Virus record (IMG/VR): IMGVR_UViG_3300042463_000545
Coordinates: 1-64,000 of that record
Direction: 5' to 3' (one strand)
From: a virus
DNA: 64,000 nt
The translations under genes were made by a program, and so were the position numbers. Positions 2,672 through 64,000 of this stretch are shown here, one piece after another. Numbering within the stretch: the first letter of the stretch is position 1; the number at the start of each line of letters is the position of its first letter. The notes under the pieces were generated by a model, which was not told the origin of the DNA, searched no databases, and worked only from the letters and a program-made list of their open reading frames with translations.

Positions 2672-2692
2672 AGCTTTAATTGTTTAATTGTT

Positions 2693-25880: not shown

Positions 25881-25905
25881 ATTAAATAAAACAAAGTAAA
25901 AAACA

Positions 25906-27459
25906 ATGGCAATTCAAACAATCCCAGGTTTAACTGGCTTTACCTATGCCCGTGTTGCGTCAATGGACAAGCGTGCAGTAGGAAAGCTAACTGATTCAAA
26001 TCACTTGGAGTCATTCCACTCTACTGAGCCAGCTGACTATGACAAGAAGATCATCTCCTTGTACACTCAGAGCTCATTATACAGCAATGACTTCCTTGAT
26101 ATGATCAACAAGTCCACTCCTTATTACATCGACAACAACAGCGATTCTTGGAAGTGGGACGTTCAAGTTCCTTACAAATTCCCTAAAATCATCGACATCC
26201 CTAGCTCTACTGCTGAGTTGAGCAAGCCAGGTATTGATGGCCAGGAGTTTCAGGTGGTATTGGACACTAACGAATTCTCTAAGAACGCTATCGTTTCTGT
26301 AGGTTCTCGTCAGTATGGTCCAAGATGGTATGCTGTAAAAGATCCAGTTCCATGGAATGCAGGTTTTCTTTACACTTTCACATTGGTGTCTGATAACCCA
26401 ATCTTGGATTTCGTAAGCTCTACCTTCTTGCAAATTGGTATCGAACTAGAATTGGTTGATGCTGCAATTGGTGAATTTGATCAGGACCTTCTTGGTTTAC
26501 CAAGACTTGGTGAGAAAATCACTATGTTCGAATCTCTTGGTTCTGGATATGGTTTCGAGCACCAAGTTACTGCATGGGCTGATGATAAGACTATGCGTGA
26601 TGCTTCTGGCAAACCTCTTGATATCTTGGTATACGCTCCTCAGCGTAGAAACCAACTTCCTCTAACTCGTAATGATGTTAAGTGGGAGCCATTCGTAGAA
26701 TTCATGTTGAGAAAAGCAATGCTTGAACTTAAGGTGAAGCGAATGATCTGGTCTAAGCCAGGCACTGTAAAAACTAATGGATCTAAGCAAGAATTGAAGC
26801 GTGTATCTGCTGGTGTTTACCACAGAATGCGTAACAATGGTAACTTGGTACAATACAATCGTGGAGAATTCTCCGCAAACCTTATCCGTTCCGTATTTGG
26901 AGACTTGTTCTACAGACGTGTGGATGTTAAGGATAGAAGAGTTAAAATGTACACTAACGAAGCTGGCTTCGATGTGTTCCAGCAGGCTCTTAAAGCAGAT
27001 GCTTTGAACTCTGGTCTTACTTTCATGGCAGATTCTGGAAACAGATATATGCAAGGAGAAGGACAGCACATCACTTACAACTTTGCATTCGATGCAATGG
27101 TAACTCGTGAGACTGGTCGTGTTGAACTTATCCACTTGAAAGAACTTGATCTTCCTCAATCCAACTTGGAATTTGGACAGAACAAGAAATCAACTCCTGT
27201 GTTCATGGTATTTGACGTATCTCCAATGTCTGATGGCTCTATGGTTAACAACATTCGTGAAGTACGTATGAAGGGTGCTCCTTCTATGACTTGGGGTTAC
27301 ATTGATGGACGTAGACACCACTTAGGCTTTGCTAAGTCTCAGGGTATGTCTTCTGCCAACAAATTCCCAGGCTACGAAATCTGGATGCAAGATCGTTGCG
27401 ATGTATTCATCGAAGACTTGTCACGAACTGTTCTCATCGAAGAAATTCCACAGTTCTAA
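25906..27459 (+). CDS. Major capsid protein (HK97 fold, crAss-like)
   Basis: 517 residues, the size and position of the crAss-like major capsid protein. Codon use is strikingly even and GC-balanced compared with neighbours (many AAC, GTT, TCT), as expected for the most expressed gene. A strong terminator follows its stop. Segments such as WKWDVQVPYKFPKIID, VSVGSRQYGPRWYAVKDPVPWNAGFLYTFTL and MTWGYIDGRRHHLGFAKSQ read as a beta-rich HK97 core. The leader AAAACAAAGTAAAAAACA supports the start. No N-terminal pro-domain cleavage site is evident. Confidence 0.9.
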   Translation: MAIQTIPGLTGFTYARVASMDKRAVGKLTDSNHLESFHSTEPADYDKKIISLYTQSSLYSNDFLDMINKSTPYYIDNNSDSWKWDVQVPYKFPKIIDIPSSTAELSKPGIDGQEFQVVLDTNEFSKNAIVSVGSRQYGPRWYAVKDPVPWNAGFLYTFTLVSDNPILDFVSSTFLQIGIELELVDAAIGEFDQDLLGLPRLGEKITMFESLGSGYGFEHQVTAWADDKTMRDASGKPLDILVYAPQRRNQLPLTRNDVKWEPFVEFMLRKAMLELKVKRMIWSKPGTVKTNGSKQELKRVSAGVYHRMRNNGNLVQYNRGEFSANLIRSVFGDLFYRRVDVKDRRVKMYTNEAGFDVFQQALKADALNSGLTFMADSGNRYMQGEGQHITYNFAFDAMVTRETGRVELIHLKELDLPQSNLEFGQNKKSTPVFMVFDVSPMSDGSMVNNIREVRMKGAPSMTWGYIDGRRHHLGFAKSQGMSSANKFPGYEIWMQDRCDVFIEDLSRTVLIEEIPQF

Positions 27460-35776: not shown

Positions 35777-38700
35777 ATGGCAGACGAATTAGACAAAATA
35801 AAACAGATCATCAATGGTGATCAAGGTAACGTCAGACAAGAGTATAATAATGCTACCACAGGATTGAATCTTGATCAGTCACTGAATCAAATTCAAAAGG
35901 GGAGGCTAACGTATGCTCTTAACGCTGCTGTTGAAAACTTTGATTCTAATTCTGTAAACTATCAGAATGAATCTGGTAACGAATTCTGCCTTCGTGTACC
36001 TGAAGGATTTGTTGTTATAGGTGAACACTTAATCGTAGAAAAAAACAAACACATATTCTTCATTACAAATCCCTCCACAGGAGATAGTCAAATTGGCTAC
36101 ATGGATAATAATGATTGTGTTTACAGAGTGTTAGTAAATGCTCCTTGCTTAAACTTCAACATCAATTATCCTATACATAAAGTTGTCCACAGAATCACAA
36201 ACTGCAATACAGAGATTTATTGGACAGATGGTTATAATCCTAGAAGATACTTAGACATTGATGACATTCCTAAGATATTAAGATCAGGAAGTCCTCTTTG
36301 CAGCCCAATCTATACGGATGATCTTGATTGTAATCAACTCAAGCTTCAGCCTAATTTTAATATTCCTGAGATAGTAATCACTGACGTTGTTAGTGGAGGA
36401 AACCTTATTTCTGGTACATACCAGTTTGCTATTCAGTATTCTGATCCAGCTGGTAATCCATTCACATCCTACTATTCAGTTACTAATCCTACACCTATTG
36501 CTGATGAGTTCATTACATCAGTTAATTTCAACTATCCTGTAGGAAAGTCTATTGTTGTTACTATTGACAACCTTGATACAACTGGGCAGTTTGAATATTT
36601 CAATCTTGCTGTAATCAAAACAATCAATGGTGTATCATCTGTTGATCTTGTTGGTACATACTTTATTGACAACAGTATTAGACAGATCACATATACAGGG
36701 CAATCAACAATTATCCTAGACATTGCTGACATCTTTGAGAAGTTTCCATTCTATGAGATTGCTCAAGACTTAACAGCTGTACAAGATGTTCTTGTATGGG
36801 ATCAGCTAACATCTATTGATAGAATCAACTATCAACAAATTGCTAGCCAGATTACATTTCAATGGGAATCTTGGAGAATTCCTCCAACAGAAAACTATGC
36901 AAACGAAATAAACGCAACGAATCTGAGAGGATATCTTCGTGACGAAGTGTATGCTTTTGAGATAGTGTTCCTTCTAAAAAATGGAAAACAGACAGATGGT
37001 TTCCATATTCCAGGAAGAGCTATTACATCATACGAACAATTATTACCAAGAATTCCTGATACAGATCCAGACTTTATAGGCAACCCTGACCCAGTTACAC
37101 ATGATTCACCGTATTGGAAGATTTATAACACAGCTTCTGTCACAGGGTTCTCTCCAGAATATTCAACAAATGATGCTTACAAAGGACCATATCAATTTGG
37201 CGAATTTGCCTATTGGGAATCTGCTGAAGAATATCCATGCAACACAGACGTGTGGGGGAACCTTGCAGGACAAAAAATCAGACATCACAAGTTCCCAGAT
37301 GTAAACATCTCACCTATTTACGAAAGTAAAGTTTTCTCTACGCCACAAACAATGGTGATGGGAAATGATGCTGTCTTTCCTATTGGTGTAAAACTTGATC
37401 CTTCTCAAATACTAAATCTTATTCAAGTATCAAATCTTACAGATGATCAGAAAGCTGACATTGTAGGATTTAAGATTGTTCGTGGTGATAGAAGTGTTAA
37501 CAAGTCTATTGTTGCTAAGGGTATTCTAAGAAACGTTGGTGAGTATCAAAGAGAAGAACAATCGTTCTACTTTCCTAACTATCCTTACAACGATCTTAAC
37601 GAAGATCCATTCCTTACAACAACAAACAATGCTTACCAGAGTGAGTGTAAACCATTTGATATAATCATCACTAGCCTAGGAACTGATCCAATTACTGGCG
37701 TTCCATTGGCTAGAATCCAATACTACGCTTGCGAGAACAACAGACTTGTTTATAAAGACTACACTTCTATACAGGATGATCAAATATGTTCTGTTGGAAA
37801 ACCAACAATTATCATTGGTCAAGGTGAAGTGGGATATGCTGATTATGATGTTTATGAATTAGATGCTCCATTTGGAGCTACATTCACAGCTTCTTATGAT
37901 GATAGATTCTTAGGACCAACAACTCTAAGCGTTGGTGACACAGCTGATATTGTTGAAGTTGTTGCTGATACAGCAGTTATATGTATAGCAAGTTGCGCAG
38001 ATGCTCAAATCAGAAGAATACGACAAGTGAGATCTGGAGCAGATTGTGGTGGCACAACACTACTTGATGGCTTTAAAGATGAGAATAGATATAGACAAAT
38101 CTTCAACTCTCCAGAGACATCGTTTGGTCAACCATTCCTAGCAGACATTCTCAAGCTTGAGAGTGTAATGTTTGGTACTGGTAAAGCTCACTTTGTTGAG
38201 GTGAGAGACAATGCTAAATATAAATTGCTCTCTGAGGCTGCTCAGAAGGCTGCTCTTGATAGTTCTGCAAGACTTGGTGGTATCACTACACCATTTAGTG
38301 CAACAGCTATGTTCACTGCGTATCAGTCTTATTTGACCATTTACATTAATGGCATCACTAGAAGAAACTACGCCTACTCATTCAACTCTATTGGTGATTA
38401 CAACTATGGTGTAGGAGTTCCTGATAATCAACGAATCAAGCAAAGAGAACTTGATATATCTAGATATCTAATTCCAGGTGTACAAGCTGTTGGCGATGAT
38501 CTACCAATCAATAACTGGAATAGAGAAAGCTCTGTCTTTGTAAAAACAAACATAGACACAACAGCTCTACCTTATCCTAGCCAGAGTCCAAACATGCTTT
38601 CTGGAACAACAAGTATTGTTTCAGATAGATCAAGATTCACTATTTCAGAAATAGGAAACTGTGGAACACCAGCTAAAGAGGAGCCTATACAGGTTGTTTC

Positions 38701-41407
38701 ATATTATGCATCATTGAAAGATATAATTATCAATCAGTGGGGACAAATCTATTCATACGAAACAATTGATACAGGGTATCAATACATAATTAACTCACCT
38801 AATCCAACCACTACAGTGTTTGGTGGTGATACATTTATTAGCAGATTCGCATTCAAAACAAAGCTTCCATTCTTTATTGATAATAGAGTGAATGCTCCTG
38901 ATGATAGCGACATCTTCTATGATGAGATAGGTAATGTTGCATATCCTAGATACTGGCATTCTGCAAGATCAATTCTCGAGAACTACAGCATTCCTGGACA
39001 AGGAGTGATGGCAAACATCATTTCTTACAAAGCACATAACTTTGATTGTCCTAATGAAGTGGGAACAGATGTGATTGTATCTACATCTACCACCACTACT
39101 AGTAGTACAACTTTCCCTCCAGGTGGATCTGGGGGAGTGACACCAAGTTCAACCGTTACATATTATGACGGTTACTTCTATCTGTTTGCTTATGGTATTC
39201 CAAACTTCTATTGTGAGAGCTCTTACAATCTTGATTTAAGACAAGCATTCAACAATAGAGAAGGAGACTTCTGGCCACATGTTAGTACAGACATTCCAGA
39301 TGACTGGTTGCAGCAGAGCTTTGTTCCTATTGCACAAGACAATACCTACTACTATAATACAACATTCTCAAAGCAAAATAGAGAGAACACATTCACACAC
39401 TTACCTCCTGATTGGGAAGCAAGACTGTGCTTCACAAACTATCCATTCAGAACAATCTATTCTGATGCTCAGAATATCGATGCTGATAACAGAGTGAATA
39501 ACTGGCTTATCTATAGAGCTATTTCTTATTTTGATTTCCCACAAAACTATGGAAATCTTGTAAGCTTAGATGGTATACAGAACAAAGCTATTCTAGCCAG
39601 ATTTGAGAACAAGACATTGATGTACAATAATCTATTGACTATTGATACAAGCAACCCTCAAGCTGCTTATGTAGGTAATCCATTATTGTTCAGAGGTGCT
39701 CCTCCAATTGACTTTGCTGAAACTGATCTTGGATATGTAGGAAGCCAACATAGAATGCTTTTGAAGATTCCTCAAGGTCAAATTATAGTTGATGCAAAAA
39801 GAGGACAAGTGTTCTTGATATCAGGAACAGAGGCAATTGACCTATCTGCATTTGGATCAGGAATGAATAGATTCTTTGTTGAGCATCTACCATTCATGAT
39901 TGACAATAACTTCCCAGATGTAAAGATTGATAATCATTTCAAAGGATTAGGATTACATGGTGTATATGATGCTGTATATGATAGAGTGATTATTACAAAA
40001 CTTGATTATGCACCAAAGTCAAATAACATTCTGTATGATCCAGTTGAACAAAGTTTCTACATCAACAATGTTGTTAATGGTCTAACCATTAGACAAGACA
40101 TTAGTCTTAGTGATGAAGAATACTTCTGTAATGTATCATGGACATTGTCTTTCAACATGAATACAAAGAGTTGGGTAAGCTTTCACAGTTATATTCCAAA
40201 CTTCTATGTTGCTGAAAACAATTTCTTCTATTCTGGACAAAACAACTGCTGTGAAGACTTTGATTTCTTAGTGGGAACGTTGGTTCCAAATCCATCTACC
40301 ACCACTACGACATCAACAAGTACATCTTCTACAACTACAACAACAACTACTGTTGCTCCTTTGCAATGTGACATAACAGCTACAGTTCAGGAGATAAACT
40401 GTTCTCTTGCAGGTGTTGGAGTAATTGTATCTTTAGATTGTATCTTGGTTGGACCAACAACCACTACTACTTCTACATCTACAACCTCCACATCTACAAC
40501 AAGTACAACGTCAACTAGTACTACTAGTACAACCACTAGTACAACAAGTTCTACAACAACTACAACCACTACAGCCGAACCAACAACAACTACAACAACT
40601 ACAACAGGAGAGCCAACAACAACTACTACTACCAGTACAAGTTCTACAACTACCACAACTACCACTCCATCTCCAACAACAACTACTACCACTACACCTG
40701 CACCTCTTACTGCTGAATGTTATATATTAACATCAGCTCCATTTGGTGGATGTACATTTGTATACAAGGATGAAAATGGTGTAACTATAACTTACAACAT
40801 ACCTTCTCAAGACGAGGGCTTATGTTTCACTGCATGTGTTACAGAAGTTATAAGTGATGATTGTGGGTTCTTTGCTCAAGGTGTTGGTTGTCTTGATCCG
40901 CAGTGTGATTGCAGTCCTCCTCCACCTACTACAACAACTACAACAACTACTATTGAACCAACTACAACCACTACTACAACTACAACTTCTGAACCAACTA
41001 CTACAACCACTACAACAGCACCACCGTCTACTACCACTACAAGCACTACAACAAGTGCTCCATATTGTTATGAAATAACAAGTGTTCAAAGTGCTCCTGG
41101 TGAATGTTTTGATTGCCCTGGTTATTTTGCAAGTACAACTGATACGTTTATCACTTTCTACGATGGTTGTGGTGGAACTCAAATAGCAGCCCCATTTGAT
41201 ATAAATGTGACCGCAAATTATAGCGATGCTTCAACACAAAGTACATTTATATCTTCAGGAACTAGTGGTAGTGTATTGATTGCTACAAGTGATATTCAGT
41301 GTGTGTCAGCTCCTACATGTGGTGAAACTGCAAGTCCAACATTTGTAAGTGCAAGTGTAATACCTGTAACAGGAAGTATTAGTGAATGTTGTGGGGGGCC
41401 ATCTTAA
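35777..41407 (+). CDS. Giant tail tube/muzzle (stabilisation) protein with modular C-terminus
   Basis: 1876 residues. The first 1,500 are a beta-rich body with propeller-like strands (LRVPEGFVVIGEHLIVEKNKHIFFITN, EIYWTDGYNPRRYLDIDD), as in tail-tubular-protein-B / P22 gp10-type hubs and the crAss-like muzzle. Residues about 1,500-1,876 are small Cys-containing domains separated by Thr-rich linkers (for example CYILTSAPFGGCTFVYKD, CYEITSVQSAPGECFDCP). A small Thr linker with PPGGSGG also interrupts the body near residue 1,110. The C-terminal modules are probably exposed adhesins. TTPB function is inferred from gene order and body architecture. Confidence 0.75.
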   Translation: MADELDKIKQIINGDQGNVRQEYNNATTGLNLDQSLNQIQKGRLTYALNAAVENFDSNSVNYQNESGNEFCLRVPEGFVVIGEHLIVEKNKHIFFITNPSTGDSQIGYMDNNDCVYRVLVNAPCLNFNINYPIHKVVHRITNCNTEIYWTDGYNPRRYLDIDDIPKILRSGSPLCSPIYTDDLDCNQLKLQPNFNIPEIVITDVVSGGNLISGTYQFAIQYSDPAGNPFTSYYSVTNPTPIADEFITSVNFNYPVGKSIVVTIDNLDTTGQFEYFNLAVIKTINGVSSVDLVGTYFIDNSIRQITYTGQSTIILDIADIFEKFPFYEIAQDLTAVQDVLVWDQLTSIDRINYQQIASQITFQWESWRIPPTENYANEINATNLRGYLRDEVYAFEIVFLLKNGKQTDGFHIPGRAITSYEQLLPRIPDTDPDFIGNPDPVTHDSPYWKIYNTASVTGFSPEYSTNDAYKGPYQFGEFAYWESAEEYPCNTDVWGNLAGQKIRHHKFPDVNISPIYESKVFSTPQTMVMGNDAVFPIGVKLDPSQILNLIQVSNLTDDQKADIVGFKIVRGDRSVNKSIVAKGILRNVGEYQREEQSFYFPNYPYNDLNEDPFLTTTNNAYQSECKPFDIIITSLGTDPITGVPLARIQYYACENNRLVYKDYTSIQDDQICSVGKPTIIIGQGEVGYADYDVYELDAPFGATFTASYDDRFLGPTTLSVGDTADIVEVVADTAVICIASCADAQIRRIRQVRSGADCGGTTLLDGFKDENRYRQIFNSPETSFGQPFLADILKLESVMFGTGKAHFVEVRDNAKYKLLSEAAQKAALDSSARLGGITTPFSATAMFTAYQSYLTIYINGITRRNYAYSFNSIGDYNYGVGVPDNQRIKQRELDISRYLIPGVQAVGDDLPINNWNRESSVFVKTNIDTTALPYPSQSPNMLSGTTSIVSDRSRFTISEIGNCGTPAKEEPIQVVSYYASLKDIIINQWGQIYSYETIDTGYQYIINSPNPTTTVFGGDTFISRFAFKTKLPFFIDNRVNAPDDSDIFYDEIGNVAYPRYWHSARSILENYSIPGQGVMANIISYKAHNFDCPNEVGTDVIVSTSTTTTSSTTFPPGGSGGVTPSSTVTYYDGYFYLFAYGIPNFYCESSYNLDLRQAFNNREGDFWPHVSTDIPDDWLQQSFVPIAQDNTYYYNTTFSKQNRENTFTHLPPDWEARLCFTNYPFRTIYSDAQNIDADNRVNNWLIYRAISYFDFPQNYGNLVSLDGIQNKAILARFENKTLMYNNLLTIDTSNPQAAYVGNPLLFRGAPPIDFAETDLGYVGSQHRMLLKIPQGQIIVDAKRGQVFLISGTEAIDLSAFGSGMNRFFVEHLPFMIDNNFPDVKIDNHFKGLGLHGVYDAVYDRVIITKLDYAPKSNNILYDPVEQSFYINNVVNGLTIRQDISLSDEEYFCNVSWTLSFNMNTKSWVSFHSYIPNFYVAENNFFYSGQNNCCEDFDFLVGTLVPNPSTTTTTSTSTSSTTTTTTTVAPLQCDITATVQEINCSLAGVGVIVSLDCILVGPTTTTTSTSTTSTSTTSTTSTSTTSTTTSTTSSTTTTTTTAEPTTTTTTTTGEPTTTTTTSTSSTTTTTTTPSPTTTTTTTPAPLTAECYILTSAPFGGCTFVYKDENGVTITYNIPSQDEGLCFTACVTEVISDDCGFFAQGVGCLDPQCDCSPPPPTTTTTTTTIEPTTTTTTTTTSEPTTTTTTTAPPSTTTTSTTTSAPYCYEITSVQSAPGECFDCPGYFASTTDTFITFYDGCGGTQIAAPFDINVTANYSDASTQSTFISSGTSGSVLIATSDIQCVSAPTCGETASPTFVSASVIPVTGSISECCGGPS
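40294..41057 (+). repeat. Low-complexity ACA/ACT repeat tracts coding for poly-Thr linkers
   Basis: Three tracts within the giant tail gene (about 40294-40353, 40454-40698 and 40926-41055) consist of short A/C-rich codons for Thr, with some Ser and Pro, in near-periodic ACAACT/ACTACA order. They flank two Cys-containing domains. The synonymous mix (ACA/ACT/ACC) means it is not a pure microsatellite, but it offers long homology with similar tracts at 30415-30470, 32886-32955, 33419-33450 and 41667-41690, and so a route for recombination. Confidence 0.8.
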
Positions 41408-51114: not shown

Positions 51115-53847
51115 ATGGCTTCATTCACAGATGCGATACCTCAGTTTAACCCATACATTCAACAGCTTCCTGTTGAGGCTATGGTTAATGTTGGTATGGA
51201 GAAGCAACAGCGTTACGACCAAGGGATACAAAGAATCCAGTCTCAGATAGATCAAGTTGCAGGGCTTAGTATTTCTAGACCTCAGGATAGAGAATACCTA
51301 CAATCTAAACTTAACGAACTTGGCTCTAAGCTAAAGACTGTTGCAGCTGCTGACTTTTCAAATTATCAGCTAGTTAATTCTGTAGCAGGCATGGCTGGTA
51401 GCATTGCGAAAGACCCAACTATTATTGCATCTATGCAATCAACAGCTCAAAGAGCAGCTCTACAAGAAAGAATTAAAAAAGATACTGAAGCTGGAAAATA
51501 TAATCCTGCAAACACCACGTTATATAATATATCAGATCAAGAATGGTTTAACGATCCTAATGTTGGGGCTAAGTATACTGGCTATTATAAAACTCCCCAT
51601 GACGTATGGGGAAAGATTAAAGACATAGCAGAAGAGGTAGGTATTGATTCAAAAGAAGTAGATAATCTTTTTGAAAGAGATTCTATTACAGGAGAAGTAA
51701 AGCGTGACAAAGATGGCAATCCAATCTTTGATGAGATGCTAGTTCAGAAAACTTTAAAAGGTAAAGATCCAGCAAAGCTGCTCTCTGCTTTTCAAGGTGC
51801 TCTCACTCCAGAAGATTACGAACAGCTTTCTATTGAAGGCAGATATAAGTATTTGAATTCTACACCTGAAGAGCTTAGAGAAAAGATTGTAACTCCTTTG
51901 AATGAAAAGATTGAATTTAATAATGGTAAAGTTGAGTTGTTAAAAATTGCGTTGGTTGATGAGAACAATAAAGCCAAAAAAAATCCACAGCTCATTGAAT
52001 CATTGGGTAAACAAATTGAATATTTTGAAACGGAGAATACCAATTTAAAAAAATCTCAAGAAAATGGACTGAAGTCACTTGCAAGTAATCCAGAAGGTGT
52101 TAAAGCAATGCTTTTTACAAATGATTACTTATCAATAATGTCTAGAGTCTTGTCAAGTGAAGAGGTCTCTACAAAGTATTCTGTTCACCCATTGTTTGAA
52201 ATTGCAATGGATAAGAAGAACTTTTTGTTAAGTGAAAGAGTGGCTCAAGAAAATGCTTATTATAAAGCACAAGAAAATAAAAGAGCTCAAGAAACATTTG
52301 AGCTCACCAAAGAAGAAAAACTACTTGATATAGAAAAAAAGAGAAGGGGACTATTTGGTGGTTCTGGACCTGGAACATCTGGATTACCACAAGGTATTAC
52401 AGAGTTAGGAACTCCTGCTGAAATACTTGCAGGTAAAAACACAGAATTTTCAAACACTCTATCTACCTATAACGAACTAAATAAAAATATTGCTATTCAA
52501 TCATTGAAAGCTGCAAACCCTAAACGTGCTGGAGAAACTGACGCAGCTTATGAAACACGACTAGCAGTTAAACTTAAAGAAATTGCTAAAGTTGTAGATC
52601 CAGATTCTGGAAGTATCAATGTAGCAGTTGAGAAACTTGCAATCTCTCAGCTTGAAAAATGGAGAACAGATCCAGATAACATGCCACCAACTGCAAAAAA
52701 TTTAATTGGAAAACAAAATGATGCACTTAAAACATTGAGCGTTCTTGAGACAGAAATGAAATCAGCAAGAGAGGAAGCTGATCAGATTGCTATTTCAAGA
52801 GGCATTGATATCGATGCTTATAACAAAGTTATGAAGTCTGTTAAACCAACTTCTATAAAGATACAAACAGGAGAATCAATCACTCTATCGCCAGAAGATC
52901 AACTTGATCTTGTTAATCTTCGTCCAGAAAGATTTAATACATTTGGAAGCTTGTTCCAAACTGATCAACAATCAAAGCTTAGTAGTCAAGCAAGAATGAA
53001 ACTTAATGCTAAGTATGGTGCTGAGAAAGTAAATAATATAGAAAAATTACTTTTCCCTTCCGCAGATTTTAATTCTGTATTTGGTGGTACTTTGAATTCT
53101 CCAATATTAGAAAATATATCAGATGGTATAAGAGATTCGCAAGTTGCAGACTATAGCGAAATATTAGCTGGTGTAATGCAAAAGAGTGGAATGGTTGCAC
53201 AACCATCTGTGTTTGACATACCTCAAGGAGATTTGAAAGAGGGTGAATATAATGCTAAGTATTCTAAAGTTTTAGAAAACTATAGAGCTATCGCTCCAGA
53301 CGAAGTTTCAGAAATTTCTAGCATTGTGTTATCTGGAAAATTTGCAGGAAATGCAATCGCTATTCCAGGAAATGCGGGTGTGCCAGATAGATATTATCTT
53401 AATGTCACTCCTTCGTCTGGAGAAGCACCCACTCCTATTCAAATAAATAGACAAGAGTTTGAAGAGTTAACCTTGACTCAAGCTCCACAATCTTCTTCAT
53501 TTACAGGTCCTTCATCATTACTGCTGAGAAAAGGAACAACCAATATGAATTCTTCTGGAGACTACATGAGTACATATTTTTCACCAAGTGATTTCTTAAA
53601 CTTCCAAAGTTCTAATTATTCACTTCGTGGGGATTTAGAAAAAGATTTAAATGATCCAAACTTATCTTTCATGAAACTTTATCTTATTGATAAAAATAGT
53701 GGTAATTTAGTGGATGATGCTTGGGTCAGAGATATCCCATTCGATATTACTTTGAGCAATGGTTCACCAAACTCAAATCTTAATCGAGCCTCTCAAGGGT
53801 TTAATAGCCAAAATGTTCAATTGATTTTCAATAGACCAGTAAATTAA
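51115..53847 (+). CDS. Virion protein preceding the RNA polymerase (910 aa)
   Basis: Mainly helical. N-terminus MASFTDAIPQFNPYIQQLPVEAMVNVGMEKQQRYDQGIQRIQSQIDQVAGL is a pattern familiar from crAss-like cargo proteins. Central region with long charged helices (TFELTKEEKLLDIEKKRRG), later beta-rich stretches. Lies between two giant virion proteins and overlaps the RNA polymerase gene by one base (TAATG), which suggests equal production. Probably co-ejected. A hairpin of AGTCCA/TGGACT without a good T-run sits just before it, at 51065-51083. Confidence 0.6.
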   Translation: MASFTDAIPQFNPYIQQLPVEAMVNVGMEKQQRYDQGIQRIQSQIDQVAGLSISRPQDREYLQSKLNELGSKLKTVAAADFSNYQLVNSVAGMAGSIAKDPTIIASMQSTAQRAALQERIKKDTEAGKYNPANTTLYNISDQEWFNDPNVGAKYTGYYKTPHDVWGKIKDIAEEVGIDSKEVDNLFERDSITGEVKRDKDGNPIFDEMLVQKTLKGKDPAKLLSAFQGALTPEDYEQLSIEGRYKYLNSTPEELREKIVTPLNEKIEFNNGKVELLKIALVDENNKAKKNPQLIESLGKQIEYFETENTNLKKSQENGLKSLASNPEGVKAMLFTNDYLSIMSRVLSSEEVSTKYSVHPLFEIAMDKKNFLLSERVAQENAYYKAQENKRAQETFELTKEEKLLDIEKKRRGLFGGSGPGTSGLPQGITELGTPAEILAGKNTEFSNTLSTYNELNKNIAIQSLKAANPKRAGETDAAYETRLAVKLKEIAKVVDPDSGSINVAVEKLAISQLEKWRTDPDNMPPTAKNLIGKQNDALKTLSVLETEMKSAREEADQIAISRGIDIDAYNKVMKSVKPTSIKIQTGESITLSPEDQLDLVNLRPERFNTFGSLFQTDQQSKLSSQARMKLNAKYGAEKVNNIEKLLFPSADFNSVFGGTLNSPILENISDGIRDSQVADYSEILAGVMQKSGMVAQPSVFDIPQGDLKEGEYNAKYSKVLENYRAIAPDEVSEISSIVLSGKFAGNAIAIPGNAGVPDRYYLNVTPSSGEAPTPIQINRQEFEELTLTQAPQSSSFTGPSSLLLRKGTTNMNSSGDYMSTYFSPSDFLNFQSSNYSLRGDLEKDLNDPNLSFMKLYLIDKNSGNLVDDAWVRDIPFDITLSNGSPNSNLNRASQGFNSQNVQLIFNRPVN

Positions 53848-56800
53848 TGGAAGAAGAATTAGGAGTATTTGGACAAAATAGTTCGTCAAATCAAAACCCT
53901 TCAACACAATTACCTTCTCAGAATCAAAGATCAATTATTGATACTTTCAATACATTGATGAATCAAGGTGCCCCAAAGTTAGGGCAAGGTAATAATACAT
54001 TTACATACACTCCAGCTGCTGGACTTGATTCTTCAGGTAGATATGATAAAGTTTATCCAGGAATGGATAACGAAGATCTTTATGCCACATACCAAGGAAC
54101 CGCTGAAAAACTTGGCAATGGTGTTGCTAAGTTTGTTGGTATTGCTGGTTCGACATTTATAAATGGTACAGCTGGTTTAGTTTATGGTGCTTTTGATTGG
54201 GCAAGAACTGGCAAGTTCTCCTCTATGTTTGATAATGATCTTACTAAACAACTGAATGATTTCAATAATGAATATCTAGAAACAACATTTGCTAACTATA
54301 AAACACAGAGAGAAACAAATGGTGACTGGTGGGAACCAGAAAATCTTCTTACAGCTAACTTCTTAGCTGATAATATTATTAAAAATCTTGGATTTGCAGT
54401 AGGTGCTTATGCCAGTGGTTTCGCATGGTCTGGTGCCTTCAAAGCAATTGGTTTGACATCTAGACTTGTTGGACAAGGAAGAAATATGGCAGCGTCTGCT
54501 GATGCTGCTGTAGGTTCAGCTAATGCTCTTCCACAGGCACAAAGACTATCAACTATAACCAATGCACTAAATAAATTAGGAGCATCTTCTAAAGTTGCTA
54601 CTGGTAGAGCATTGATGGGAGCTGAAAGAGGTATTGTAGCAACCTTTGGTGCTGCTGGCGAAGCTGGTATAGAAGCTCTTAATGCTTCCCAAGAATTCAG
54701 ACAATCATTGATTGATAAATACACTGCTGAGAATGGATATTTACCACAAGGAGATGATCTAGCTAATATTAATGATCTTGCAGAAAGAGCTGGTAAAACA
54801 GTGTATGGATTGAACATTGGATTACTATCAGCTTCTAACTTTATACAACTTCCTAAAATATTCTCTTCTACATTTAGAGGGGAAAAGAATATTGTTAACA
54901 ATGTAATGTTTAAAGATGGGAAGTATCTTTCAGCACTTCCTGAAAAAGGATTAGCCAAAACTTTTTATAAAGCTAGAAGCATTGCTGGATTAGCATTCAA
55001 TACAACTGAAGCACTCGAAGAGGCTTCACAATATGCTGCACAAGTTGGTACACAGAACTATTTCTCAAAGCTTGATGAGACAGGAAGTGCTTCTATTCTA
55101 AATGATCTATTCTTTGATGGTGCTAAAGAGGCATTGACTAGTGACGAAGGTTTACTTAACCTATTCATTGGTGGTGTATCTGGAGCTATCATGACATCTG
55201 GAATACCAACACTTGGTATGACTGGTGATATTAGAGAGAGAGGATTTACTGGATATGGTGGTCAGCAAGCAAAGCTTAGAGATGAAGCTATCACTATATT
55301 CAATAGCTCCCTGATTAAAGATAAACTTAAGGATTCTTCAAAAGTTATAAATGCTGCTGAAGCAATTCAACAAGAGAGAGCACAGAAGATTATACAAGGA
55401 GATGTATCAGGATCAAAAGATCTTGAGTTTGATTTTCTTTTTGGCACAATATTAAATCGTGCCAAGTACACATCTACAGAATTTGTAAATCTTGAGCTTG
55501 AAGAACTTAGATCTGTTGCTAATACAGAAGAAGGATTTTTGCAATTACAGCAAGAGGGATATGCGTATCAAACTGATACTAGACAATCATTCTTGAATAG
55601 ACTTCAAACTATTGAAAACCAAGCTAATTATATTGATAAAGCCTATCAAGATATTAGCCTAAAGTACAAAGGTGTTGTTGATAACAAGGGTGATCGTGTT
55701 TATAGCGATGTTGTAATTGACAAACTCACTTATGCTGCTTCTAAAGTATTTGATTATGATAGTAGAATACCTAGCCTAAATAACAAGTTAATATCTGCTG
55801 GTGTAAATACTGCTGAGCTATTCAATGATGTATTGTTGAATGGAACTCCTAAAGAGGAGGCTGTTGAAAAAGCTCTATCAGAAATCAAATCAAAAGGTTC
55901 AATCAATGAGGATGAGTTAACTCAAGATCTGTTTGAGCTTGTTGAAATGGGTATGAAGAGAAAGAAGTTTCTTGATGAATATTCTGAGATGAAATCTACT
56001 CCTGAGAAATTCACTCCAAAAGAAAAGGAACCTGAAACAGTTATTCCTCAAGAAGAAGTTGGTAAGACAGTTAAAATCAAAACCAAGGATGGTGAGAAAA
56101 ATTTTAAAATAGGTGAGGAGTACTTTCTAGGTAAAGTTGTAAAGTATGATCCAAAAGGAAATGAAATTTATCGTTTTCCAAAACTTACTATTCTTGGACA
56201 AAATCCAGATGGTACCATTAAAATAAGAGATAACAAAGGAGAAAGAGATATTGATGCTGAAGAATTACAGGATTACAAATTAGGAAGAGTTTCAGCAGTT
56301 GCCAATAATCCCATAGCTGCATTCTTCATGAAGAATGCTAATACCGTTGTAGAATGGAACATGGGTAAAGATAAGGGTGGTGTTAAGAAAGGAAGACTTG
56401 AGTTTGATAGTGATAAAAATCAACTCATGTTTACTTATGTCACCAAGGGTAAGAAAGGTAAATCAGTTGTAAAATCAATACCAGTTGATTTAAAATCATT
56501 CGAACCAAAACCTGGATTTAAAACAGCAATGTTCTCTCTTGGTAGACAATTAACCACTGAAGAGAAAGAGCAAATTAAGCAATCTAAAGATGCAAAGAAA
56601 GATGCAGCTCCTTCACAATTCTATGCACAAGTTATAAATGATTACCACAATGAGGTTATTGAGAAACAAGCTGAGTTAGAAAAAACAATTAAGCAGAAGA
56701 GAGCTGATGTTATAACTATTGAAGAAGAGCTTGAAAAAATCAATAAGATTATTCAACAAGGTGGAGATGATGCTAGAGCTAAGAAGGGTACAAGACTAAA

Positions 56801-59800
56801 GTCTTCTGTAAGAAAAGCTCTTGATGCAGCAATGCGTTTGTCAAGAGCTAAGGAAGATCTATTGCAAGAAATTGCTGAACTAGAATCTCAGAAAGAAGAT
56901 GGTGAGTTACTTCTTGCATACTTGCAGGATGCAGTTCAAAACATTTCAGAATTTACTGAAGGCCAACAATCTACTATTGATCAATTAGAGTTTGAGACAG
57001 AACTTCTAAAAGAATCAATAGAGGAGAATGGTAAACAAATTAATGCAATCACAAGACTTGCAGATGAGATTGATAATACAATTGATTCTGCTATAAAATT
57101 CTTGAGAAGTGTAATTGATGAGTTTGAAAAAAACTATCCAAAGGCTCCTACAATCATGGGAGTGGAGTTCAATGAATTCCTGAAAGCTAATCCAAACTTC
57201 TTAAAACTAAAACCAAATTTCATTTCAGACTTGCGTGAGTTAGAAAGACTCATTGCTGAAGTGGAGGATATGGAAATTGCTGTAAATGAAGAGAAGTTAA
57301 ATAAGGTTCTAGATGATATAAAATCATTAAAAGAATCTCTTCAGACAGAAGTGAATGAGCTAAGATTCAAGGAAGAACTTCTTTCAAAAATGAAGAAGGC
57401 TTACCAAGATTATCAATCTAACATTCTTGAAGAAGAAAAACTTGCTAAGGGTGATGCTCTAAGAAAACAAATCTTAGGCACTGCTGATAATGATAATCCA
57501 GTTCCTGTTGTGTTTGATAGGGAGTTTGAGGTTGATGCTAAGAAGCCTGTATCTATTATCCCTAGAGCTACAATACCAGTTGATAGAGGGAAGGATCATC
57601 AAAAGAGAGCTCAAAGATTTGGAATGAACTTCCAATCGTTTGGTGAAAATCAAAAGAAAAACATCAAAGGTGTCTACATCACTTCAAAGAACCAGGATCA
57701 ATTGATTCCTGGATTGATGGACTTCTTGAGAACTGATGAGAATGGTATTAATGAAACAGTTGATGCAAACAAGATCATTGCTATGGTCATGGTTGATATG
57801 TCAACTGGCGAACCTGTATTGGTTAATGAGAGTGGATTACCTCTTACAGAAGAACAACTACAAGATCCTCTTAACAACTCCATCTACCAAGTATTTCCTT
57901 TAGAAGATCTTAAGTGGTCTGGAGACTACGGTGATAAGTCAATGTTTGCTGAGAGTGTTTCAGAGAATGTAAGAAGTGAAGTTAGAAAGCAATATGCTCA
58001 ATGGAGAAGTGAAGTTCTCAAGATAGAAGATCTTTCTGAAATCCATTCTATTGATGTATCATTTGGTTTTCCAAAAGTTAACCAAGATGCAGAAGGAAAG
58101 AAACTTTACGACACTAGAACAAGTGTTCAAGATGCTGGTCTAGTTACAGACTACGATATTGACAACTCTCCAATAATCACTGTTGCGACAAGTGATGAAT
58201 CTATCATTAGAGGCATAAGTGTAACTAAGTCTGCTCCAGGTAGAGTGTTTCTTGATATGGGCAATGGACTTGTTCCATTGAACAATAGACAACATACTAG
58301 AAAAGAAGCTGAGACAATATTTAACGCTATTCTACAGTTTTCAAAGAACGCTCTTGATAAGTCTAAGGGTGTTAATGATGATCAAAGTAAGACACTTTTA
58401 TCATTCTTGAAATCTGTTGTGTATTGGGGAATACCAGTTAAAGAAGCTGGATTTAGTAGCGTCTTCTTCAGAGATGGGAAGTTGTACATGTCTGGAAAAG
58501 GGGCAGCCTTCCCATTCACACCATCAGGTCTTTTACAAAACAAGGAGGACATCATTGCTACATTACAAGGAATGTATCACAATGTAAATGGTAAATATGC
58601 TAGAGAAGTTGGAATAGAATATGAGCAGATTACAAACATCTCTGAAGATGGTACAATTGAATCTGTTACCTGGCCAAACTATCAATCCTATTTACTTTCT
58701 ACAACCACTCCTGATGGTAAGCAAAGATCTGGAGAACAACTTCCTCTTTCTACCTACATGCGTCCTCTAGAAGGACCAAGTGATGTAAACAGATCTGGAA
58801 TCTACTTCTACACTACAGACACTGAGGATGCTTACATTATTCCAGAAGCAAAGAAAGAAACTAAGCTTGCACCAGTAGCAACTGAAAGTGCTGAGCCTAC
58901 ATTAATTCTTGATGGTGAAACACCAAATCAATTAAGATCATCTAAGACAAATAGAATTATTGTTTTCGCAGCACCTTCTGTAAATCCAACATTAGAAAAT
59001 ATAAAAATATATAAGTCTGATGACTTAGCTGCTGTCATGGTAGATTTTGAAAAAGAAGGTAAAGATCCAAAAGTTGCTATTAAGGAAATGGTTCTTAAGG
59101 TTGTTCAAAGACAAATTCAATCACAAACACCAAGTCCTAAAACTGAGAAAACCAGAGAAAGATTATTTGGAAAACAAGCAGCTAGCACTCCTGCTACTAA
59201 AGAGGCTGAACAACCTAAAGAATCTAAGACTGAAGGAACTAGAGCTCGTTTATTTGGCAACCAACCACCTATTATTGAAGAAGAAGAAAGTGACGAATCT
59301 GCTGATGATATTTTAAATAAATTTAACCCTAATCCAAAGAACGATAAGGCTGACTACAGAGAAGTAGTTGAGAAGCAGGCCAAGTCTATGAAGATTGAGG
59401 ACTGGAATGAAATAGAAGCTTTCTGGAAAAAAGCTATTCCTGGTGTTCCATTATATAGACTTAAGAATTTAATTCAAGCTACTAATGGTGCTCAAGCTTG
59501 GGGCATGTTGAAGAATGGTGCAATCTATGTATATGAAAATGCAGAGGTGGGTACATTCTACCACGAAGTTTTTGAAGCTGTATGGAAGATGTTCACTGAC
59601 CCAGCTGAGCAACAATCTATTATTAAGGAGTTCAAATCTAGAACAGGAACATTTGTTGATAGACCTACTGGTGAGACAGTTAAATATTCAGAAGCCACAC
59701 CTCAGCAAATCAAAGAACAACTTGCTGAAGAGTTTAGAGACTATGTACTATTCAATAAGGTGCCTACGAAACCAAAGGATGGAAGACCTTTTATAGTTAG

Positions 59801-62800
59801 ACTATTCTCTGATATTGTTAATGTCATCAAGAAATTCTTTACAGGTAAAGATGCAACTATCAACACTGAAGAACTATTCAAAAGAATAGGCACTGGCTAC
59901 TATGCTAAGTCTATTCCTTCAACAGGAGTACTTGAGAACGTGCCTACTCAGATAGTAGACATTGAAGATGCATTTGCTACAGAAGAAGATGAGTTGAGAA
60001 TTACAATTCCTTATAAGCAACAGAATGAGTTAATTCAACACATGGCTTATAAAACCTTGTCTCTTCTTGGAAACACTGATCAGAGCTTGTTTAATGTTAA
60101 CAAACTTTCTAAAAATTATTTGTACAATGAATTGCGTAACACAATTCTAGGACAACTTGATGAAGATGGAAATCATCTTAGAGATGAGCAAGGTGTGGTA
60201 ATTCAGAATGGACTTATAAATGATTTACGAGTAGCAAATGCTAATAATGAAAAAGCAGGTAAGATATCAAACCTTGAATATAAAACACTTAATAAGTTTT
60301 TAAAACAAACTAATATAAAAGTAGCTGAGGAATGGGATGAGCTCTTCAAAAAGTATGAAGAGTACATGGCACAGTATCAAATTGAATTTGATGAGAATGA
60401 GGAGTTTGAAATCCGTGATGAAGAAAAGACCAGAGAAATCAGTCCAGATGCAACAAAGATTGATGCATTTAGAAAAGCAAACTCAGCAATAAAACTATTG
60501 CTTGCAACACTTCCTAGAACAACAGGGAAGAAGAATGTTGATGGTACTGATGAAGCAATGGTTACATCTGTTGGTGGAAATGAATTGCTACCTCTTAGTC
60601 AGACATTCATTACTGTAATGAATAAACTTCATGCATCTAGAGATGTGAATGAGATGATGGAAAATCTCAAACAACTTGCTATAGAGGATGGAAACTATTC
60701 TAGATTATATGAAAGACTTGCTAAGAAGAAAGCAAGCGATGGTAATTTTGAATTTAAAAAATTAACCAATCCTCATAGCATTCAATTGCTATCCTCTTTC
60801 TTCAGTACATTTAAAAAACAAAATCCAGGAGTTAAGAACGTATTCATTCTTGAGAATGGAGACGTAGTTGTTGGTGATGCAAACTTGTCACAAGCTTCTG
60901 CACAGATTGCAAATGATTATGAGAATGGAATCATAATGTCTGCAAGAGATGGTAAAGGATATCTTGAATATAGTGTTGCAGAAAAAGCTTATGTTGCAAA
61001 AGATTCTATTAACAAACTAAAATTCGATTCTTCAAACATTGCAGATAATGACAATGCAATGTTAAGATTCCTGAATGACATTGGTGTTGAGTTTGATAAG
61101 AACAATTTCAAAAAACTTAACAATAATGACAAGACTAAATTTAGAGAAATTGTAAAAGGTATTAGAGACAGTCTTGTTAAGAACAAAGTTTTAATGACCC
61201 TTTCTAAGAAGACACTTAGTATTCAAGGAAGACTTACAGAACTTGCTATTTTAAAAATAAAATCTTCCAACCCAGAGATTGAAAGCACATACTTTAACAT
61301 TTCAAATGAGCGTACACAGTCTTACATTGGCGTAAATCCACTAAGCGACTTACGAGATTTTATATCTTCTGTGGAAAATCTCAGTGATAATAGCGTTAAA
61401 GAAAGTCATTACAAATACCTTGTAATGGATCCTTTTGTAAAAGGTTCTTCTGTAATATTAAATAAGCTATTTCCAAAGGGAGGACAGAAGACTTCTCCAT
61501 CAAATCCTAATTATGATTTATTGACAGTCGAATATGTTGGAGGTACTAAGAATGATATCAACGGTAAGCAAAAACCTTCTGCTAGACTAAACTATCCAGA
61601 ACGTCTGACACAAGAAATTAATCTTAACCTAGATGGATATTATTTAAACCTTGTTCCTGGAGATGCTTCTATTGAATGGATGATTAAGATGGGTAACCAT
61701 GTATCATCTAAAAACATGAGCATGGGTTATGGGAAGGTGATGGAAATATTCAAAGAGTATTTCAAAGCTGAATACGAACTTGCTAAGTCTCCAGATAGAG
61801 TTGTTGATGGATCTAGAGAGTCTGAGAGAAACAATCTTAGATTCTTCTATGATATCTTAGGTAAGGACCTACACAATGAAATTATGGCCTTTAAAGAGGT
61901 TGATGCAGATGCTGTATATAACAAGTTTGAAAAGAAAATTGAAACTGCTGTAAAGAAGTATATTGAATCTAGAACAGAAGCATTTAGAAATACATTAAGT
62001 AAGTATGGTATTCTTCAATACGATGGTGCATCGTTCACTCTAAAGAATATCAAAACTAGTGAAGATGGAATGTATTCATTGAGCAAATCAATGAATGAGC
62101 AGACATTGAACAACAACTTGTCAGCACTCACTGTCAACTACATGATTGCTAACATTGAGTTGCACAAGCTTATATATTCTGATCCATATCAATACAAGGA
62201 TGAACTTAAGCGTATTAAAAGCTTTAGCTCTCCAAGACAAGCTATTATGTCTGATCCAGATAACTTAACTGTTGGATTTAATATAAATGCAGCAATGCAA
62301 AATGTATTGAATGCAGGATTTAAAAAAGGAGATGTTGGATATACAGACTTTAATAGAAACTATTTCAGAACAGTTACACATTCTGATGTAATTGGTATTG
62401 TGGATGTTCCTGGACAAGATTACGAATCATACAAAGAGACGGATGGTTCAGGCATAATTTCTATGAAGGCCCATAGAAACCTAAAGTTTAGAGCGGGTCA
62501 GTGGACAGAGACTAATGAACTTCAATATAGACACGATGTTGCCTATGAGGAGCTTGTTAAATCTGGAGCAGATCTAGATACAATTAATAAGTTTGAAGAA
62601 AACAATCCTGGTGATCAGAGCACTTACACTCCTGTAAAACCAATTGTTGCTGGAACTACTGACAATAAGCAAGGATATAATGAAGTTGTTCTTGACAAGT
62701 TTGCCCTTTATCCTCTATCATTTAGAATTATGCATAAGGTGAATTCAACATCTAATGCAATGAAGCTTTATGATAAAATGCAGAGAGAGGATATTGATTA

Positions 62801-64000
62801 CATTGTATTTAATAGTGGTAGAAAGGTTGGAGCAAGAAATCCACATTCTACATACAACGCTGATGGGTCATTCAACAACACTCCTTACATAGATGATGAA
62901 AAGGGTCAGAATGTTATCAATGTCCCTTTCAAGATTATGGCCATACAGGCAGAAGTTCCTTCTAAGGAAAAAGCTCTTGTTACTAGAGGTTCTCAAATGA
63001 CAAAGCTTTTGACAATGGACTTCATGGCTGCTGGTGTTCCTGTTGACTTCATGCCTAATGAAACAAACTTCAATAAGAGATACCAAGCATGGAATGCTCT
63101 TGACGAAGCTGGTAAAGAAAAGTCTAAGCTTTACAAAGAAATAAAGAACAACAGAGAATTGCTACAAGCAATGACTGAGTTTGGTTACCAATCTCTATTG
63201 AAAAAGCTTGGTATTGTAGAGACAGAAGGAAAATATGAAATAACTGACTTCTCTGTTGCAGCTGATACATTAAGAAAAGAGATGCTAAAGAGAGAAGTGA
63301 ATGACAACGTGATTAAATCACTTGACTCATTCCTTGAAGGTAAAACTATTCTTGAAGCAACACCTGCATATCAGCAAGTGAGAAACATTCTATATTCTAT
63401 TGTTGATAGTAATGTGGTTTCTCCAAAAATATCTGGAGGAATGAAGGTACAGATTCCTTCCACACTACTAGAATCAAATAAGATAGGAGTGCAGGAAATC
63501 AATGGTAAGAAAGGATTTGTTTCTGACACACTGAAGTTCTATGAGAAGGATGGAGAACGTGTAGCTGAAGTGATGATTGGTAGATGGTTTGATAGCCCTC
63601 TCTCTGATGAAGAGCTCATGAACTATTTTAACAATACAAAAGAGGGTCAGAAACAACTATCTGCTCTATTTGGTGTTGCATTCCGTATCCCTACACAAAA
63701 CCAAAACTCAATTGATGCAGTCAAGATTGCTAAGTTCTTACCAAAAGAATTTCGTGATTCTGTAGTTATCCCTTCTGCACTTGTAGCTAAGGTTGGATCT
63801 GACTTTGACATTGATAAACTTTCAATGTATTTGAAAAATGTTTATCTAGACATAGATGGTAACATTAAACTTGTTCCATTTGAAGGTTATGGTCAACAGG
63901 CTATTGATAAGTTTAAAGACCTATCAAGAAGAATTACTGAAGCGGAGATTACAATCAAAGAAGAAAAGATTGCTAAACAATCTAACCTCCAAAGAATATT
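53847..64000 (+). CDS. Virion RNA polymerase giant protein, partial
   Basis: Open frame from 53847 to the right edge, at least 3,384 codons, no stop. Residues 3319-3323 are DFDID (63801-63815), the metal-binding motif of the crAss-like virion RNA polymerase (phi14:2 gp66 type, related to two-barrel eukaryotic RdRPs). It is preceded by FRIPTQNQNSIDA, as RNAP beta-prime subunits have an R-P-T before the DFDGD motif. N-terminal 500 residues are hydrophobic/Ala-rich, then coiled coils (about 900-1,180), then a zincin-like HEVFEAV at H1906, whose third ligand is Glu, and two RLFG repeats. Probably ejected to transcribe early genes. Confidence 0.88.
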   Translation, partial: MEEELGVFGQNSSSNQNPSTQLPSQNQRSIIDTFNTLMNQGAPKLGQGNNTFTYTPAAGLDSSGRYDKVYPGMDNEDLYATYQGTAEKLGNGVAKFVGIAGSTFINGTAGLVYGAFDWARTGKFSSMFDNDLTKQLNDFNNEYLETTFANYKTQRETNGDWWEPENLLTANFLADNIIKNLGFAVGAYASGFAWSGAFKAIGLTSRLVGQGRNMAASADAAVGSANALPQAQRLSTITNALNKLGASSKVATGRALMGAERGIVATFGAAGEAGIEALNASQEFRQSLIDKYTAENGYLPQGDDLANINDLAERAGKTVYGLNIGLLSASNFIQLPKIFSSTFRGEKNIVNNVMFKDGKYLSALPEKGLAKTFYKARSIAGLAFNTTEALEEASQYAAQVGTQNYFSKLDETGSASILNDLFFDGAKEALTSDEGLLNLFIGGVSGAIMTSGIPTLGMTGDIRERGFTGYGGQQAKLRDEAITIFNSSLIKDKLKDSSKVINAAEAIQQERAQKIIQGDVSGSKDLEFDFLFGTILNRAKYTSTEFVNLELEELRSVANTEEGFLQLQQEGYAYQTDTRQSFLNRLQTIENQANYIDKAYQDISLKYKGVVDNKGDRVYSDVVIDKLTYAASKVFDYDSRIPSLNNKLISAGVNTAELFNDVLLNGTPKEEAVEKALSEIKSKGSINEDELTQDLFELVEMGMKRKKFLDEYSEMKSTPEKFTPKEKEPETVIPQEEVGKTVKIKTKDGEKNFKIGEEYFLGKVVKYDPKGNEIYRFPKLTILGQNPDGTIKIRDNKGERDIDAEELQDYKLGRVSAVANNPIAAFFMKNANTVVEWNMGKDKGGVKKGRLEFDSDKNQLMFTYVTKGKKGKSVVKSIPVDLKSFEPKPGFKTAMFSLGRQLTTEEKEQIKQSKDAKKDAAPSQFYAQVINDYHNEVIEKQAELEKTIKQKRADVITIEEELEKINKIIQQGGDDARAKKGTRLKSSVRKALDAAMRLSRAKEDLLQEIAELESQKEDGELLLAYLQDAVQNISEFTEGQQSTIDQLEFETELLKESIEENGKQINAITRLADEIDNTIDSAIKFLRSVIDEFEKNYPKAPTIMGVEFNEFLKANPNFLKLKPNFISDLRELERLIAEVEDMEIAVNEEKLNKVLDDIKSLKESLQTEVNELRFKEELLSKMKKAYQDYQSNILEEEKLAKGDALRKQILGTADNDNPVPVVFDREFEVDAKKPVSIIPRATIPVDRGKDHQKRAQRFGMNFQSFGENQKKNIKGVYITSKNQDQLIPGLMDFLRTDENGINETVDANKIIAMVMVDMSTGEPVLVNESGLPLTEEQLQDPLNNSIYQVFPLEDLKWSGDYGDKSMFAESVSENVRSEVRKQYAQWRSEVLKIEDLSEIHSIDVSFGFPKVNQDAEGKKLYDTRTSVQDAGLVTDYDIDNSPIITVATSDESIIRGISVTKSAPGRVFLDMGNGLVPLNNRQHTRKEAETIFNAILQFSKNALDKSKGVNDDQSKTLLSFLKSVVYWGIPVKEAGFSSVFFRDGKLYMSGKGAAFPFTPSGLLQNKEDIIATLQGMYHNVNGKYAREVGIEYEQITNISEDGTIESVTWPNYQSYLLSTTTPDGKQRSGEQLPLSTYMRPLEGPSDVNRSGIYFYTTDTEDAYIIPEAKKETKLAPVATESAEPTLILDGETPNQLRSSKTNRIIVFAAPSVNPTLENIKIYKSDDLAAVMVDFEKEGKDPKVAIKEMVLKVVQRQIQSQTPSPKTEKTRERLFGKQAASTPATKEAEQPKESKTEGTRARLFGNQPPIIEEEESDESADDILNKFNPNPKNDKADYREVVEKQAKSMKIEDWNEIEAFWKKAIPGVPLYRLKNLIQATNGAQAWGMLKNGAIYVYENAEVGTFYHEVFEAVWKMFTDPAEQQSIIKEFKSRTGTFVDRPTGETVKYSEATPQQIKEQLAEEFRDYVLFNKVPTKPKDGRPFIVRLFSDIVNVIKKFFTGKDATINTEELFKRIGTGYYAKSIPSTGVLENVPTQIVDIEDAFATEEDELRITIPYKQQNELIQHMAYKTLSLLGNTDQSLFNVNKLSKNYLYNELRNTILGQLDEDGNHLRDEQGVVIQNGLINDLRVANANNEKAGKISNLEYKTLNKFLKQTNIKVAEEWDELFKKYEEYMAQYQIEFDENEEFEIRDEEKTREISPDATKIDAFRKANSAIKLLLATLPRTTGKKNVDGTDEAMVTSVGGNELLPLSQTFITVMNKLHASRDVNEMMENLKQLAIEDGNYSRLYERLAKKKASDGNFEFKKLTNPHSIQLLSSFFSTFKKQNPGVKNVFILENGDVVVGDANLSQASAQIANDYENGIIMSARDGKGYLEYSVAEKAYVAKDSINKLKFDSSNIADNDNAMLRFLNDIGVEFDKNNFKKLNNNDKTKFREIVKGIRDSLVKNKVLMTLSKKTLSIQGRLTELAILKIKSSNPEIESTYFNISNERTQSYIGVNPLSDLRDFISSVENLSDNSVKESHYKYLVMDPFVKGSSVILNKLFPKGGQKTSPSNPNYDLLTVEYVGGTKNDINGKQKPSARLNYPERLTQEINLNLDGYYLNLVPGDASIEWMIKMGNHVSSKNMSMGYGKVMEIFKEYFKAEYELAKSPDRVVDGSRESERNNLRFFYDILGKDLHNEIMAFKEVDADAVYNKFEKKIETAVKKYIESRTEAFRNTLSKYGILQYDGASFTLKNIKTSEDGMYSLSKSMNEQTLNNNLSALTVNYMIANIELHKLIYSDPYQYKDELKRIKSFSSPRQAIMSDPDNLTVGFNINAAMQNVLNAGFKKGDVGYTDFNRNYFRTVTHSDVIGIVDVPGQDYESYKETDGSGIISMKAHRNLKFRAGQWTETNELQYRHDVAYEELVKSGADLDTINKFEENNPGDQSTYTPVKPIVAGTTDNKQGYNEVVLDKFALYPLSFRIMHKVNSTSNAMKLYDKMQREDIDYIVFNSGRKVGARNPHSTYNADGSFNNTPYIDDEKGQNVINVPFKIMAIQAEVPSKEKALVTRGSQMTKLLTMDFMAAGVPVDFMPNETNFNKRYQAWNALDEAGKEKSKLYKEIKNNRELLQAMTEFGYQSLLKKLGIVETEGKYEITDFSVAADTLRKEMLKREVNDNVIKSLDSFLEGKTILEATPAYQQVRNILYSIVDSNVVSPKISGGMKVQIPSTLLESNKIGVQEINGKKGFVSDTLKFYEKDGERVAEVMIGRWFDSPLSDEELMNYFNNTKEGQKQLSALFGVAFRIPTQNQNSIDAVKIAKFLPKEFRDSVVIPSALVAKVGSDFDIDKLSMYLKNVYLDIDGNIKLVPFEGYGQQAIDKFKDLSRRITEAEITIKEEKIAKQSNLQRI

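Follow-up and report, generated by a model that had tools for sequence, protein, structure and literature searches.

The analysed stretch of DNA, referred to here as the window, covers bases 1–64000 of a 71,767-nt virus record. Its 3′ end is occupied by a giant open reading frame (ORF) that starts at 53847, stays open to the end of the window and ends at 66506 in the full record, giving a protein of 4,219 aa (Table 1); reading beyond position 64000, as the first-pass annotation had proposed, thus completes the frame. The next gene, at 66506–71416 in record coordinates, encodes a protein of 1,636 aa. Further upstream, a large virion protein encoded at 35777–41407 carries long tracts of only Ser and Thr (TTTTTSTSTT...) towards its C-terminus, at window positions 40400–41200.

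Table 1. Features of the giant gene in the window. Residues are those of the encoded protein; positions are those of the window.
Feature	Residues	Position	Strand	Basis or remark
5′ part of the fused cargo-protein/vRNAP gene, 3,384 codons of 4,219		53847..63998	+	ORF reading, full record
Homologue of phi14:2 gp67 / crAss001-type gp47 N-terminus	19–747	53901..56087	+	hhalign, HMM, tblastn
Probable coiled coil, charged, heptad pattern	~925–1200	56619..57446	+	Crude heptad test with shuffles
Low-complexity linker, most variable junction	1690–1845	58914..59381	+	97–605 aa in relatives
Zincin-like domain; HEVFE (1906–1910) at 59562–59576	~1845–2010	59379..59876	+	HMM homology
N-terminal part of vRNAP (gp66 ~99–746)	~2053–2677	60003..61877	+	L009 model 263–862 vs 6vr4_A, Z 9.1, 393 residues
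vRNAP catalytic core	2677–3769	61875..64000, continuing to 65153	+	hhalign to gp66; L009 model vs 6vr4_A
RIPTQ, 39 residues upstream of DFDID	3280–3284	63684..63698	+	Conserved in crassvirus vRNAPs
DFDID, presumed catalytic Mg-binding aspartates (3319, 3321, 3323)	3319–3323	63801..63815	+	Conservation; gp66 D1361 alignment

TerL, portal and transcription block are all related to those of crassviruses, which places the virus in the order Crassvirales. PHROG matches were obtained for TerL, portal and the major head protein, and TerL matches crAss-like phages with E values of 1e-76 to 2e-21. By BLAST rank, TerL is nearest to Leptolyngbya phage Lbo-JY46 (40%), followed by phi17:2 (31%), and the MCP matches only Lbo-JY46 (26% identity). 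Both genes lie at 19893–27459 of the window, and the record of this cyanophage of Leptolyngbya boryana is not classed as Crassvirales. Lbo-JY46 itself possesses an unfused gp67-like ORF of 1,552 aa, and no match to the RNA polymerase (RNAP) core was found in its large ORFs. An integrase of the PF00589 family was found neither in the record of the window nor in 20 large related records.

The giant ORF had been read as a crAss-like virion RNA polymerase (vRNAP) from a DFDID motif with R-I-P-T upstream. The motif lies exactly where it had been placed, and the upstream element reads RIPTQ. Conservation was counted over 72 non-identical sequences, comprising the window protein and its IMG/VR relatives. 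D-F-D-[IV]-D is present in every one of them, with I in 71 and V in one, and the RNAP core is among the best-conserved parts of the whole protein. Similarly, R[IV]P[TN][QE] precedes D[FL]D[IV]D by about 39 residues in all ten reference crassvirus vRNAPs with an uninterrupted motif, one of which carries the variant RVPTE. A chance occurrence of DFDID was ruled out by this conservation, by the recurring context and by the homology to gp66 of Cellulophaga phage phi14:2. It could still be supposed that the motif is real while the protein has become a structural pseudo-enzyme and no longer acts as a polymerase. We regard this as very improbable, since the three aspartates and RIPTQ are invariant or nearly so in one of the best-preserved parts of the chain.

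When searched alone, the window protein hit none of the Pfam families, had no phmmer match in the PDB and reached only E 0.96 for its best PHROG. Therefore, the RNAP assignment rests on the profiles of relatives and on tblastn. The latter matched the C-terminal third of the giant protein to phi14:2 gp66 (E 1e-12), which is annotated in its record as ‘Catalytic RNA polymerase subunit’. In the profile–profile comparison (hhalign, local), residues 2677–3769 align with gp66 778–1765 at E 8e-30, whereby residue 3319 pairs with D1361 of gp66. The domain boundaries given here were taken from a local hhalign run.

To describe the fold, models were made on a relative (L009) that is about 80% identical, and not on the window protein itself. 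The AlphaFold2 model of its core, calculated with 56 aligned relatives, has a pLDDT of 82 and a pTM of 0.82. The sole significant Foldseek match of this model is the phi14:2 vRNAP (6vr4_A, E 1.5e-25), and VIA-align superposes it on residues 705–1784 of the same chain with a Z of 23.8 over 863 residues at 3.4 Å. The next-best VIA-align matches are the two-barrel RNAi polymerases QDE-1 and RDR2 (Z 8.5–9.5; about 8.9 for QDE-1). The β′/Rpb1 barrel blocks align at model residues 554–849, which enclose DFDID (681–685). The predicted structure thus matches a single-chain two-barrel RNAP fold around the motif. The double-psi β-barrel expected around residue 3319 is supported by the relative's model, which fits both 6VR4 and the barrel block of cellular RNAPs. 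The region 1790–2660 was also modelled on L009, and its last 600 residues match 6vr4_A 99–746 (Table 1), which puts the start of the gp66-equivalent polymerase at about residue 2000–2050 of the window protein. The identification as a crAss-like vRNAP is thus borne out by the homology to gp66, by DFD[IV]D in the whole set of 72 and by the superposition of the relative's model on 6VR4.

The same annotation had assigned more than 2,000 extra residues to the region in front of the polymerase. A long upstream region indeed exists and amounts to about 1,958 residues in comparison with gp66 (3319 minus 1361), but it is not an addition of unknown origin. Its N-terminus is homologous to gp67, the neighbour of gp66, and the extra length is thus explained by a fused neighbour. 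Residues 19–747 align with gp67 12–700 at E 8.9e-38 (hhalign), and an HMM of the same residues detects phi14:2 gp67 at 1.8e-12. This HMM matched crAss001-type gp47 homologues and phi17:2 gp39 at E values of 1e-65 to 1e-61, among the hits being PhiCrAssBcn25_59 (1e-65) and cr128_1 (2.5e-63). As judged from these profile matches, the N-terminal part is the known RNAP-associated virion cargo protein of the gp67/gp47 type. The idea of an unknown extra N-terminal region was rejected, given that homology to gp67/gp47 and to a zincin explains this part. The middle segment, residues 760–1800, gave no detectable gp67 match by HMM. The segment 747–1220, which contains the probable coiled coil, spans 166–688 aa across the relatives. 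None of the crAss-like literature found on giant RNAP ORFs states explicitly what the N-terminal part is; this puzzling half of the giant ORFs is now settled as the gp67/gp47 protein.

Coiled coils and a zincin-like motif had also been noted, and both are located upstream of the polymerase, although the motif is HEVFE and not the full HExxH. An HMM of residues 1800–2010 detects the zincin at the C-terminus of crAss001-type gp47 (PhiCrAssBcn25_59 2058–2196, E 9e-16), as well as cr128_1 gp051 (6.5e-17), cr108_1 (5.5e-17) and cr118_1 (1e-13). The internal zincin of the giant ORFs of Suoliviridae is likewise homologous to the window domain by HMM. The zinc-binding HExxH is absent from the window domain, and column 1910 is occupied by Glu, as in the window, in 59 of the 72 sequences and by His in the remaining 13. 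The domain model of the relative L009 matched a zincin protease only weakly (Z 3.6 over 77 residues). In contrast to the variable linker in front of it, the zincin is 164 ± 2 aa long across the family and is followed by a join to the RNAP of 51 ± 2 aa (sd 2.1–2.2). Since the stretch from zincin to RNAP varies by only a few residues, the zincin looks built into the polymerase.

These features bear on the earlier proposal that the giant chain is a processed polyprotein. Once translated, or while the virion is being assembled, it would be split into the RNAP and a gp67-like cargo protein, probably within the linker 1690–1845, with either its own zincin or a different protease making the cut. The two halves exist as separate proteins in several Steigviridae, the zincin is preceded by a long low-complexity linker, and the 13 relatives with His at column 1910 retain the full HExxH, all of which would suit such a cut. 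However, the lineage of the window carries the degenerate HEVFE, as does most of the family at the decisive position, and the join between zincin and RNAP is nearly constant in length. Furthermore, the unfused crAss001-type gp47 has a zincin too, without any junction to cut, and in the crAss001 structure paper no statement was found that these proteins are cleaved. No specific cleavage site was identified in the chain, where only the variable linker came into consideration; a pair of RxRLFG within it resembled a repeated motif, yet just one of the 72 sequences has it. Processing is therefore unsupported, and we consider it unlikely. If a cut occurs at all, the linker is its likeliest site, and the product would then keep the zincin on the polymerase. 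A tentative alternative, to which we give a rather low probability, is that the degenerate zincin, rigidly joined to the RNAP, now serves as a module without catalytic activity or with an altered metal, anchoring the RNAP to the ejection apparatus; the fused chain would then transcribe the incoming DNA. The fixed geometry of degenerate zincin and polymerase provides a concrete hypothesis for polymerase docking in the ejection machinery.

The gene downstream of the fused ORF encodes a gp65-like protein (hhalign E 4.9e-11). While gp67, gp66 and gp65 are three genes in phi14:2 and cr111_1, the window has the same order with gp67 and gp66 in one. Hence, by homology, the gp67-type and gp66-type genes, which some crassviruses keep apart, are fused here. 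Around residues 346–575, the gp65-like protein weakly resembles NotI and an exonuclease PHROG, in keeping with the PDDEXK domain that has been described for some proteins of the crAss transcription block.

A comparison with other genomes showed that the layout is not restricted to the window. Five annotated genomes of the Suoliviridae, a family of gut crAss-like phages (cr125_1, cr118_1, cr60_1, cr4_1 and cr56_1), possess a single ORF of 4,461–4,946 aa with the zincin motif at 1734–2047 and DFD[IV]D at 3209–3568, cr108_1 is fused like the window according to the profile alignment, and among about 80 IMG/VR loci nearly all intact members carry the fused ORF. Two Intestiviridae have another layout, in which the DFDID of the RNAP is situated at 1462–1503 of a 4,098–4,245-aa ORF and the zincin protein is separate. 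Both fused and unfused arrangements thus occur among crAss-like phages, which could raise the suspicion that assembly has artificially joined two genes. Nevertheless, the fusion was found independently in dozens of contigs, with best-segment identities of 34–83% to the window protein, as well as in the five Suoliviridae genomes. These independent assemblies refute an artefact, to which we attach practically no probability.

The first-pass annotation had also described the catalytic motif as unusually far from the N-terminus. As a claim of novelty this is wrong, because five Suoliviridae share the same fusion and because vRNAP fusions to large proteins are reported to occur in crAss-like phages (PMC10770324). 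RNAP genes of crAss-like phages reach up to about 6,000 aa (review, PMC10136315), and giant ORFs that contain a crAss-like vRNAP were known before. What the present analysis adds is a large, mostly unclassified crAss-like clade with vRNAP and cargo partner as one chain. In the tree of the RNAP core, the window family forms one clade (100/100) with cr108_1 next to it (96/99), on long branches flagged by the program, while the Suoliviridae are placed elsewhere. This would be compatible both with one early fusion followed by later splitting and with several separate fusions.

Combined, homology and fold prediction make it highly probable that the giant protein of 4,219 aa represents a crassvirus vRNAP of the gp66 type fused N-terminally to its RNAP-associated cargo protein of the gp67/gp47 type, for which packaging, injection and catalysis would follow by analogy. 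In crAss001, gp47, gp49 and gp50 are virion cargo according to mass spectrometry (PMC10172136), and vRNAP activity is reported for phi14:2 in PMC10136315. By analogy with these two phages, the fused protein would be packed in the capsid alongside the gp65-type product of the next gene, leave through the tail partly unfolded and refold in the cell, where it would transcribe early phage genes. Its single chain is predicted to contain two double-psi β-barrels, and DFDID, which lies in one of them, would bind the catalytic metal. As for the fused head, it would most likely lead to 1:1 packaging and ejection of the polymerase and the cargo partner. It may also link transcription to the entry of the DNA, a coupling that has already been raised by others (PMC10770324).

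Relatives were also encountered in cellular genomes. In Chitinophaga sp. YR573, the 4.83-Mb contig NZ_FOJF01000001.1 contains a relative at approximately 3,641,213–3,768,405, whose 5,485-aa ORF is a triple fusion of cargo protein, RNAP and gp65, with relatives of TerL (42% identity) and portal (54%) nearby. A 637-aa tyrosine recombinase adjoins a tRNA-Gln gene, and the 42 bp at the 3′ end of this tRNA gene recur as an exact direct repeat about 127 kb away, the two copies probably representing attL and attR. From its sequence, the element looks like an integrated provirus. A review describes crAss-like phages as apparently strictly lytic and lists YR573 among the crAss-related sequences. In the 1.05-Mb record CP070801.1, labelled archaeal (Candidatus Aenigmatarchaeota bin1364), a 1,424-aa ORF with DFDID (L110:9185-13456) gave an HMM match to the crassvirus RNAP core at E 4e-24, for which integration, a chimera and misbinning are the candidate explanations.

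In comparison with known systems, gp66 (PDB 6VR4), gp67 and gp65 of Cellulophaga phage phi14:2 resemble the window in the core, DFDID, RIPxQ, the predicted fold and the gene order, but gp67 and gp66 are separate genes there and identity to the window is about 25%; HExxH was not found in either of these two phi14:2 proteins. The Suoliviridae (delta crAss-like), such as cr118_1 gp14, cr4_1 gp26 and cr60_1 gp27, share the single-ORF layout, yet they keep the full HExxH, belong to a separate clade of the RNAP tree and, in four of the five genomes, have many in-frame TAG codons in the giant gene that are read as sense (decoded as Gln here). Gp054 and gp053 of the pipoluvirus cr108_1 (Steigviridae) represent the nearest classified RNAP in the tree, with zincin and RNAP likewise fused, but a group I intron interrupts the gene at the DFDID codons. 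This intron (NC_055878.1, L012:16139-16457) matches RF00028 at E 1.9e-20, and the two halves of the gene are annotated as two hypothetical proteins. PhiCrAss001-type gp47 is homologous to the window protein in its N-terminal region (window residues 19–747) and in its C-terminal zincin (window residues ~1845–2010), whereas gp47, gp49 and gp50 are three genes in that type, with the RNAP and the gp49 type on the opposite strand. The Chitinophaga sp. YR573 element is homologous along the whole fused protein and differs in that the gp65-type protein is fused as well, giving 5,485 aa in one chain. Finally, gp96 of Thermus phage P23-45 likewise unites a vRNAP and a giant virion protein in one chain (PMC10770324), but the partner is a different one, a tail tape measure protein, with the RNAP at its N-terminus.
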